Shown: positions 33,816 through 36,225 of the stretch, one piece after another | Layout of the letters: every line of letters starts with the position of its first letter | Numbering within the stretch: the stretch's first letter is position 1 | Assembly: GCA_007121455.1 (NCBI GenBank) | Contig: SKKN01000027.1 | Span: 1-64,000, forward strand | Source of the DNA: Gemmatimonadota bacterium | GTDB taxonomy: Bacteria; Gemmatimonadota; Gemmatimonadetes; Longimicrobiales; Gaopeijiaceae | DNA length: 64,000 nucleotides | Direction: 5' to 3' | Notes under the pieces: model-generated | The model's database searches: none | What the model was told of the DNA's origin: nothing | Seen by the model: the letters and a program-made list of their open reading frames with translations, nothing else | Program-made: the position numbers and the translations under genes

Positions 33816-34907
33816 TCAGGAGCCCGCCGCAATTTCGGCTGGTGAATCGCCGCCGACGAGCGTCCCCTCCCGCTCCCGCACTCTGGGAATCACCTCCTCG
33901 GCAAACCGCTCCATCTCCTCGAGCTGAGGGGAGAACTGCAGGAGCAGGAGATCCACCCCCACTGCTTCGAGCTCGAGGATCCGATCGGCAATCTGATCGG
34001 GAGTTCCTACGAGCCCCGTTCGGAGCCCTCGGTTCGAGACGGAGTAGTCTTCGAGGGAGACCTTCCGCTCGAGCTTCGTGTTCGATACCCAATCCTGGTA
34101 GTTCGTATAGCTCGAAGCACTCTGCCGCACGTCGGTGATGCGCGAGACCTCGGCCTGGGCTTCCTCTTCGGTGGGCCGGCACACCACGAACCCCGCGACG
34201 CCGAAGCGAAGGGGTCGACCGCCGACCTCCTCGCGACGCCCCCGCATATCCTGGATCTTGGCGGCGATGGGCTCCGGCGGGTCGCCGTGCGTGAGAAATG
34301 CATCGGCCTTATCGGAAATGAGACGCTTGCCCGCCTCGGACTCGCCCCCTGCGTAGAGCACCGGCCAGGGCTTCTGAACGGGCTTCGGTTCCAGCATCGT
34401 CTCCGAGACCGTGTAGTACTTTCCTTCGTGGGAGAAGGGCGTCTCCGTCCAGAGCCCCTTGACCACGTCCAGCCACTCGCCGGTCCGGTCGTACCTTTCG
34501 TCGTGGCGATCGAAGAAGGCGCCGTACTGCCGCGCCTCCTCGGCCCACCACGAGGACACGACGTTGAGCGAAAGGCGTCCCCCGCTGATCCGGTCGATGT
34601 TCGCCGCCCGCTTCGCGAGGAGAGCGGGATTGTGAAAGTTGGGCCGGACGGCGACCATGAGCTCCAGGTGCTCCGTCACGGCCGCGAGGGCGGCGGCCGT
34701 GCTCCAGGCATCCAGGGAGGGCGCGTCGGGGCCCTTGATGTCGTTGAGGTTGAGCTCCGCCAGGAGGGTGACGTCGAACCCGATCTCCTCACTCCGTAGC
34801 GCGAGCTTTCGAACGTACTCCCAACTGGCCTCCATGCCTTCGTCCGGGACGTTCCGGAGCCATCCTCCGAATACGGGAAGCCAGAACCCGAAGCGCATCC
34901 CCGTCAT
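33816..34907 (-). CDS. LLM-class flavin-dependent monooxygenase, SfnG/SsuD-like
   Basis: 363 residues, luciferase-like TIM barrel. It is closest by eye to FMNH2-dependent sulfur-scavenging enzymes: dimethylsulfone monooxygenase SfnG and alkanesulfonate monooxygenase SsuD. Shared features are [13 protein letters not shown] at the N-terminus, [47 protein letters not shown], and the C-terminal [19 protein letters not shown] followed by [10 protein letters not shown]. These would release sulfite or sulfinate from an organosulfur substrate. The ATG overlaps the ATP-grasp stop (ATGA). No dedicated flavin reductase is nearby. The exact substrate is unknown; other LLM enzymes of this branch act on different C-S or C-N compounds. 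Confidence 0.82.
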
Positions 34908-35962
34908 CGTGAACCTCCGTTCTCTGCCACCACACCCTCCAGGTAATCGCCGAGGACCGGAACCGGATCGAATCCCACCACCTTGACCGGATCGGCAACG
35001 AAGTTGGACAACGCGTTCACGTCGTAATACACCCGTTCACCGGACACATCGTCGATGAGGTACTCCACACCTCCCACCTCGATGCCGGCGCGAGCCATGA
35101 GCGTCTCGACCTCCCGAATGATCTCCGGGGACGGCTCGAAGCCCTCCACCTTCAGACCGGTCTTCGGAGCATCCAGAGGGCAGGCGCTTCGCTCGAGCTC
35201 GGCGCCGTTCACTCCCTGGCAGACGTCGGCGGGGCAAAGGTTGAAGGTCTCCCCCGTCAAGTGGATCCGGATCGCGTAGAGGAAGACTCCTCCCACGACC
35301 TCGACCCGAACGATCGTCTGGTCCCGGGGCGGCACGAACTCCTGCACGAGCACCGTTCCATCGACCCCGCGCTCCAATGTCCCGGCGGAGAGGATCTCTT
35401 CGAGCAGCTCTTCCGTGTCCACCCGCACGACGCCCGCCCCGCTCCCGCCCACGTTGGGCTTCAGGATGAGGGGAAAGCCGAGTTCCTGCGCTGCGTTTCG
35501 AATCCCATTGTCGCTATGTGCGGCCAGGGTGGAGGGGTGCGGCAGACCGAGGTCGGCCAGAATTCGGATCTGGCGAAGCTTCGAAGTCTCGGTTCGGTAC
35601 GCCGCCAGTCCATTCACCACGCGTGTCCCGCGAGCTTCGAGCTCCTCCAGAAGCTGTTCCGTGAAGAAGATTCCCGACGCTCCCTCCCGGAGGTAGGCCG
35701 ACGGGCTCATGCGATTGAACAGCACGCTGAACGGGAGCGACTCTCCCTGAACGCTGAAGTGAACGTCTCCGGCATGCAGCGCCTGGAAGGGCAGCTTTCG
35801 CGCCTCGAGTTCGTCGAAGAGTGGCCCGAACCAGGTGGGGTGCTCGTGAAGGATCCCGAGGCTCGGCTGAGGGAACTCGGCTCGCTGGCTTCCGGCGGCG
35901 TCCGGCACGACGTCCGTGGTGGGGCCGCCGGAACCGTTCGTGGTCGTGGTATGGATCGACAT
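34904..35962 (-). CDS. ATP-grasp ligase, RimK-like
   Basis: 352 residues from the ATG giving MSIHTTTTNG; GGGAG lies 8 nt upstream. An in-frame ATG 24 nt earlier follows the T-tract directly and has no ribosome binding site. The N-terminal part has PSLGILHEHPTWFGPL. The ATP-grasp fold follows: FPLILKPNVGGSGAGVVRV (nucleotide binding), VLVQEFVPP, and the metal-binding YYDVNALSNFVADPV. Such enzymes join a carboxylate to an amine, often amino acids or peptides. The acceptor is unknown. It heads an operon with the SfnG-like oxygenase and is separated from the Cys-rich ORF by a strong terminator hairpin. Confidence 0.85.
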   Translation of the reverse strand: MSIHTTTTNGSGGPTTDVVPDAAGSQRAEFPQPSLGILHEHPTWFGPLFDELEARKLPFQALHAGDVHFSVQGESLPFSVLFNRMSPSAYLREGASGIFFTEQLLEELEARGTRVVNGLAAYRTETSKLRQIRILADLGLPHPSTLAAHSDNGIRNAAQELGFPLILKPNVGGSGAGVVRVDTEELLEEILSAGTLERGVDGTVLVQEFVPPRDQTIVRVEVVGGVFLYAIRIHLTGETFNLCPADVCQGVNGAELERSACPLDAPKTGLKVEGFEPSPEIIREVETLMARAGIEVGGVEYLIDDVSGERVYYDVNALSNFVADPVKVVGFDPVPVLGDYLEGVVAENGGSR

Positions 35963-35993
35963 TCGTGTCTCCCTGATGTCGCTCATTCGTTTG

Positions 35994-36033
35994 AAAAAGA
36001 AAAAGGCCGCGACTCCGGGAAGGAGCCGCAGCC
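35994..36033 (-). terminator. Intrinsic terminator, probable attenuator of the ATP-grasp/LLM operon
   Basis: On the minus strand GGCTGCGGCTCC (36033-36022) pairs fully with GGAGTCGCGGCC (36016-36005; two G-U pairs) across a 5-nt loop, and is followed by TTTTTCTTTTT (36004-35994). It lies 42 nt after the Cys-rich ORF stop and 31 nt before the ATP-grasp start. Its position between leader ORF and first gene is that of an attenuator. Competing pairing is possible: 36038-36045 can form 7 pairs with 36024-36031, using the same 5' arm. Confidence 0.85.
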
Positions 36034-36059
36034 TGTTCTGCCGCCGGCGAGACCGTCAG

Positions 36060-36095
36060 GTCCCGGGGATCGGGCTTATCCGAGCTTCCCCGGAC
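36060..36095 (-). promoter_or_regulatory. Leader RNA stem-loop spanning the Cys-ORF stop codon
   Basis: On the transcript GTCC-GGGGA ... TCGG ... CCGA-TCCCC-GGGAC can fold into an extended hairpin with one bulge. It encloses the leader stop codon. A ribosome reaching the stop would disrupt it, whereas one stalled at the Cys codons (36133-36153) would leave it free. It is a candidate switching element, judged by eye only. Confidence 0.4.
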
Positions 36096-36186
36096 ATATC
36101 CCGACACCCTCCTTCCCCGAACTTCGGGTCAGGCACAAACAGCGACACATGCAGGTCGCCCGGGGAGGGTATGCGGATTCGATCAT
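36076..36186 (-). CDS. Cys-rich leader peptide (CMCRCLC), 36 codons
   Basis: Short ORF from an ATG to TAA encoding 36 residues with the run C12-M-C-R-C-L-C18 and a further Cys at 31. It is too short for automatic ORF calling. It has no ribosome binding site, and its ATG is 9 nt from the -10 box of a good promoter, so it is probably leaderless or almost so. A strong terminator hairpin follows 42 nt after the stop. The downstream operon encodes an SfnG-like sulfur-scavenging oxygenase. This is the pattern of a leader peptide in which ribosome stalling at Cys codons relieves termination. The peptide itself need not have a function. It is not recognisable as any known protein. Confidence 0.7.
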   Translation of the reverse strand: MIESAYPPRATCMCRCLCLTRSSGKEGVGICPGKLG

Positions 36187-36195
36187 GACGACTTC

Positions 36196-36225
36196 ACGTT
36201 AACCGAACCCCTACGGACGGGTCAA
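36196..36225 (-). promoter_or_regulatory. Promoter of the Cys-leader/ATP-grasp operon
   Basis: On the minus strand TTGACC (36220-36225), 18-nt spacer, TAACGT (36196-36201), which keeps the three most conserved -10 positions. The leader ATG is 9 nt downstream, so transcription should begin within 0-4 nt of it. The promoter lies in the short region after sdhB, which makes the operon independent of mdh-sdhCAB. Confidence 0.6.

Follow-up and report, generated by a model that had tools for sequence, protein, structure and literature searches.

Enterobacterial trp, his and leu attenuators are built around a leader ORF with single-codon runs and a mutually exclusive antiterminator and terminator, and the same design can be recognised at the locus considered here, with the differences that the amino acid would be cysteine, that the start is probably leaderless, and that the target is salvage-like rather than biosynthetic. 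Attenuation by cysteine has, in the papers we found, been described only from Actinobacteria and Rhodobacterales. Poly-Cys leaderless short ORFs were first noted in mycobacteria (PMC4633059) and are the subject of Canestrari et al. (2020, Mol Microbiol 114:93), taken here from the accounts in PMC9031893, PMC9094748 and PMC13236596; according to these accounts they attenuate with cysteine supply, and we infer the same response here. The likeness extends to a Cys-rich short ORF upstream of sulfur-related operons, but the phylum and the target genes are others. Cys leader peptides proposed for the cys operons and cbs of Actinobacteria share Cys codon runs, a short ORF and sulfur genes with our locus, but terminators were not found there and the runs lie near the stop codon (PMC1262725); the cys-operon leaders of mycobacteria have this placement and no conserved terminator, and the leader described here shows neither trait. 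Finally, uORFC-8-2, the cysS leader of Rhodobacterales, carries Cys codons as well as an intrinsic terminator and is predicted to attenuate transcription through the ribosome, but has only two tandem Cys codons, stands only before cysS and belongs to one alphaproteobacterial order (PMC8632094).

The locus lies within 64,000 nucleotides from a Gemmatimonadota bacterium (GCA_007121455.1, contig SKKN01000027.1, positions 1 to 64,000), the whole of which we call the window. Unlike uORFC-8-2, its leader precedes not cysS but an ATP-grasp gene and a luciferase-like FMN-dependent monooxygenase (LLM) gene, and very likely acts as a cysteine-responsive, ribosome-mediated transcription attenuator of this operon, a reading that conservation and a candidate antiterminator path both support. 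What is new relative to the known Cys leaders is the terminator plus antiterminator, the probably leaderless start, the phyla concerned and the target operon. A complete and conserved attenuator would offer a ready handle on sulfur control in phyla where little is known of gene regulation, and would tie an unstudied pair of ATP-grasp and SfnG/SsuD-like enzymes to cysteine supply, which gives that pair a testable function.

Layout of the leader and its operon

The elements all lie on the minus strand; the promoter boxes, Cys codons, small hairpin and U-tract were read directly from the DNA.

36220-36225, minus strand: -35 box, TTGACC
36196-36201, minus strand: -10 box, TAACGT, with an 18-nt spacer to the -35 box and the ATG 9 nt downstream
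36076-36186, minus strand: leader ORF, MIESAYPPRATCMCRCLCLTRSSGKEGVGICPGKLG, 36 codons plus stop (ATG at 36186, stop 36078-36076)
36133-36153, minus strand: putative regulatory Cys codons, TGC ATG TGT CGC TGT TTG TGC (CMCRCLC)
36116-36128, minus strand: candidate 1:2 hairpin, CCCGA-AGT-TCGGG
36109-36117, minus strand: candidate antiterminator strand 2, GGGAAGGAG, a 9-nt perfect complement of strand 3
36017-36025, minus strand: candidate antiterminator strand 3, CTCCTTCCC, comprising the terminator loop and the top of its 5' arm
36005-36033, minus strand: intrinsic terminator hairpin, GGCTGCGGCTCC-TTCCC-GGAGTCGCGGCC, 12 bp including two G-U, 5-nt loop
35994-36004, minus strand: terminator U-tract, TTTTTCTTTTT (T5-C-T5)
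34904-35986, minus strand: RimK/LysX-like ATP-grasp ligase, encoded by the leading operon gene (Pfam RimK 2.5e-8; TIGR00768 6.5e-20, below cut-off)
33816-34907, minus strand: LLM of the SfnG/SsuD group (Bac_luciferase 1.1e-64)

On re-reading, the promoter, the 36-codon Cys ORF, the hairpin with its T5-C-T5 tract and the 42-nt gap between leader stop and hairpin proved exact to the base as given in an earlier, sequence-only reading of the same DNA. The Cys codons of the run start at 36153, 36147, 36141 and 36135, the last of them 54 nt before the leader stop, and a fifth Cys codon follows at 36096-36094. With its flanks, the terminator folds at -26.8 kcal/mol. The leader gave only sub-threshold matches in Rfam, none at gathering score, and its peptide had no match in NCBIfam.

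About ten related Gemmatimonadota leaders share the order TTGAC[N], 17-18 nt, TA[N]NNT, and then the ATG after 5-9 nt. With the -10 box ending so close to the ATG, transcription probably begins on this codon or beside it, which would make the leader leaderless. This promoter motif near the ATG is missing from a second ATP-grasp group and from most Acidobacteriota leaders.

As for the downstream genes, the predicted model of the ATP-grasp protein is closest to ArgX/LysX/RimK. Its start is probably the second ATG, at 35962, rather than the first, at 35986, since an AGGGAG-like ribosome site precedes the second and the first stands only 7 nt past the U-tract. The monooxygenase gene overlaps the ATP-grasp stop; its product scores 1.3e-77 against the SfnG model, below that model's cut-off, and has 3rao, 8vw6 and 8t0u as its nearest solved structures.

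Conservation of the Cys codons

We searched for the ATP-grasp protein in the Gemmatimonadota family of the window (121 genomes) and read the upstream regions in gene orientation, taking 450 nt upstream of each homologous gene; 39 family loci have a readable upstream region, and these are related rather than independent. An upstream ORF with at least three Cys in eight residues occurs in 39/39 of them (this genome included) as against 10/336 random windows, and one with at least four Cys in eight residues in 30/39, as against 0/336 random windows and 1/39 on the opposite strand. The clusters take such forms as MCGCMCCCPC, MCMCCCM, MCCCMC, CMCMCMCAC, MCCCIC and CCCCPMC, and leaders of a related ATP-grasp group (~30-35% identity) carry TCTCSCSCPC, TCACMC and KCICRCSCSCS. 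By its own terms the sequence-only reading would have been refuted had relatives lacked the Cys codons or the ORF; they instead keep the Cys run in frame together with the terminator, and the rest of the leader peptide varies widely. It is this position and conservation that make the leader significant, not the rarity of a Cys pattern in the genome, where TGYNNNTGYNNNTGYNNNTGY alone is not rare (7 matches, 22 for the reversed control) and TGYTGYTGY has many matches, fewer than its reversed control, and is uninformative. Among 78 homologous loci in other genomes, the leader with its terminator recurs in Acidobacteriota and in a MAG labelled Cyanobacteria, and the leader is absent from many Planctomycetota and other loci.

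Might the ORF be a chance occurrence, with a hairpin that merely terminates mdh-sdhCAB, as the sequence-only reading had allowed? The hairpin does lie downstream of sdhB, which is the upstream neighbour of the leader on the same strand, and it could also stop read-through from that gene. However, the Cys run, frame and terminator are conserved with the ATP-grasp gene at loci without sdhB: no sdhB is found near the ATP-grasp gene at any of the 39 other family loci, and only one of the 78 loci outside the family has it, on the opposite strand there (1/117 other homologous loci in total). We thus regard this explanation as extremely unlikely; on the evidence of gene order, the leader goes with the ATP-grasp gene and not with sdhB, and the arrangement is not chance. 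Judged by these comparisons the element is real and conserved, and its role is almost certainly a regulatory one.

That role could in principle belong to the leader peptide, sensing a metal, redox state or an arrest signal instead of Cys-tRNA; arrest peptides are known, and pairs of the CxC kind are possible metal ligands. Yet only the presence of Cys is kept, as its order, spacing and length and the flanking residues vary (MCCCMC, CMCMCMCAC, TCTCSCSCPC, CCCCPMC), and the choice of codon is strongly biased: TGT makes up 66/105 (63%) of the Cys codons in leader runs as against 12/87 (14%) in the regulated ATP-grasp genes (p = 1.7e-12), which implies selection at the level of the codon and is what one would expect if the codons mattered and not the peptide. 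Similar leaders, complete with terminators, stand before cysteine synthase in 2/30 loci examined (G055 and G064, of the same family; loci L249 and L220), where they read ACMLCACCCCCA and GGCCCACS and start ~360-390 nt upstream of the match. A peptide sensor is very unlikely in view of these observations, and the genomic context speaks strongly for cysteine as the signal.

Terminator, antiterminator and the proposed switch

In most family homologues the leader stop is soon followed by an intrinsic terminator. Across the non-redundant set the distance from the stop to the terminator start is 17-45 nt, with a median of 30, and the stop itself comes 27-72 nt after the last Cys, so that these leaders, in contrast to the mycobacterial ones, combine interspersed Cys codons well ahead of the stop with a strong intrinsic terminator and a matching antiterminator strand. 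Our scan recognised no terminator in four relatives with a Cys ORF (G046, G055, G061 and G105), whose leaders may use another mode of control. Terminator sequences vary by lineage (CCTCTCC, GGCCGCTC, CCGGGTC and GCGACTCC types), and the segment after the Cys codons varies in step with them.

This parallel variation was quantified across 25 non-redundant leaders by pairing the 45 nt after the Cys run with terminator 5' arms permuted among leaders. Each segment pairs with its own arm at a mean of -21.8 kcal/mol, as against -17.9 kcal/mol for permuted arms (z = -5.8; 0/20000 permutations as good), and the 45 nt before the Cys run, taken as control, gave z = -0.8 (p = 0.2). Perfect complements are likewise longer across leaders than in shuffles (Wilcoxon p = 0.0003). 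In the window, GGGAAGGAG (36117-36109) pairs perfectly over 9 nt with CTCCTTCCC (36025-36017; p = 0.007 vs shuffles), which takes up no more of the terminator than its loop and uppermost 4 bp; in several relatives the antiterminator covers most of the terminator 5' arm. The duplex energy in the window is no better than in shuffles (z = -0.1), and the high GC content of the sequences leaves most leaders without a significant energy against shuffles when each is taken singly. Counting covariation would be of little use in a MAFFT alignment of 11 leaders, where the columns of the antiterminator hardly vary. Taken across leaders, the comparison supports as antiterminator the segment just after the Cys codons, pairing with the terminator 5' arm, and it favours 36117-36109 with 36025-36017 over the two candidates first proposed by eye, a stem-loop at 36060-36095 and a pairing of 36038-36045 with 36024-36031.

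The matching of each terminator to its own leader bears on a further explanation, in which the Cys ORF acts on translation or via Rho and the hairpin is an ordinary terminator. Mycobacterial leaders have been described as affecting the translation of downstream genes (PMC9031893), their lack of conserved terminators (PMC1262725) points the same way, and our scan gave no convincing terminator for the poly-Cys ORFs of Bacteroidota described below. On the other hand, in Gemmatimonadota and Acidobacteriota the ORF stop and the terminator are separated by a short stretch that varies little in length, and the terminator 5' arm complements the post-Cys segment of its own leader far better than those of others; we consider a translational or Rho-dependent action unlikely here.

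Transcription attenuation, our preferred reading, would then work as follows. RNA polymerase would start at or next to the leader ATG, and a ribosome would translate the Cys-rich leader as it emerges. With Cys-tRNA charged, the ribosome would clear the Cys codons, leaving the post-Cys segment covered or in a local hairpin of its own, and the terminator (36033-35994) would halt transcription ahead of the ATP-grasp gene. With charged Cys-tRNA scarce, the ribosome would stall on the CMCRCLC codons and leave the post-Cys segment (36117-36109) free to pair with the terminator 5' arm and loop (36025-36017), allowing read-through into the operon. A ribosome halted on the last Cys codon would cover the 5' half of the candidate 1:2 hairpin, a structure with similar post-Cys counterparts in relatives. 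Both the Cys-tRNA signal and the direction of the switch are what we infer from a set of features familiar from trp- and his-type attenuators: a conserved run of codons for a single amino acid, a terminator between the ORF and the first gene, and, seen mainly across leaders, a terminator-excluding antiterminator whose 5' strand lies past the regulatory codons.

Folding with a ribosome footprint was another check that the sequence-only reading had suggested. Three states were compared: a ribosome on the last Cys, a ribosome on the stop, and no ribosome. Antiterminator pairing was higher in the first state than in the second for 18/25 leaders, which is the expected direction but a weak effect (p = 0.037), and the terminator itself did not change significantly with ribosome position (p = 0.12). 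The effect is small in the window as well (antiterminator 0.51 vs 0.42; terminator 0.88 vs 0.89). As this is equilibrium folding, which ignores the order of synthesis, it neither proves nor refutes the switch.

Sulfur context and Cys leaders elsewhere

What might the operon do? The ATP-grasp gene followed by the LLM gene is kept as a pair in nearly all close homologues. In some Gemmatimonadota a gene for an SsuE-like NADPH-dependent FMN reductase (TIGR03567, E 1.9e-39, below the model cut-off) lies between leader and ATP-grasp gene, within 620 nt upstream of the ATP-grasp match (L082, L093, L095, L127 and L149; scanned as well as read in L095, recognised visually in L082 and L149), and the same ATP-grasp/LLM pair stands behind SAM-I riboswitches in some Bacteroidota. 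The retained LLM partner, the SsuE-like gene and the SAM-I riboswitches support a sulfur-related target, in keeping with the sulfur scavenging that the sequence-only reading had proposed, and the operon probably releases sulfur from an organosulfur compound. At one locus (L146:1819-1894) a SAM_alpha (SAM-II) riboswitch match, at 38.9 bits over a gathering score of 36, lies ~250 nt before the ATP-grasp match, and no Cys leader was found at that locus. A search for SAM riboswitches in the genome of the window gave none.

The Bacteroidota loci show a different arrangement. In Pontibacter, Rufibacter, Salegentibacter and Nafulsella the SAM-I riboswitch is followed after ~5-15 nt by a short ORF whose last residues are CCC to CCCCCCC, 260-310 nt from the ATP-grasp match. 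Across seven Bacteroidota genomes an ORF with a Cys cluster follows 16/26 SAM-I riboswitches, and the genes behind the combination include OAH/OSH sulfhydrylases, CysH, NirA/sulfite-reductase-like, SusC, an NhaC-like antiporter and ATP-grasp; in the same genomes no Cys-cluster ORF was found at SAM-I riboswitches before metH, metE or cysteine desulfurase. These data point to combined control by a SAM riboswitch and Cys codons, an arrangement for which we found no description in open-licence papers, and the mechanism may differ there, given the lack of a convincing terminator in the scan. We think it fairly likely that sensing cysteine by Cys-codon leaders is widespread and that the wiring varies: Gemmatimonadota and Acidobacteriota would use a terminator with an antiterminator, and Bacteroidota a position directly behind SAM-I, such that sulfur-assimilation genes would read both SAM and charged Cys-tRNA, and methionine-synthase genes SAM alone.

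The genome of the window provides an independent context: a second poly-Cys leader, MSEYGRTFVCCMCSCLCCGCREMPGTAELCTCRRRKMV (L189:2005-2121), which has a TTGACA-TATTTA promoter and an intrinsic terminator, precedes genes for a TonB-dependent receptor and a SusD/RagB-like protein. In G086 (L191) a receptor 62% identical to this one is likewise preceded by a leader with Cys and by a terminator, and the other TonB homologues are mostly without a leader.

The individual Bacteroidota loci at which a SAM-I riboswitch leads straight into a short ORF that closes with a run of Cys codons are L253, L264, L259, L255 and L267, and further L252, L260, L262, L268, L269, L273, L274, L275, L266, L256 and L261.
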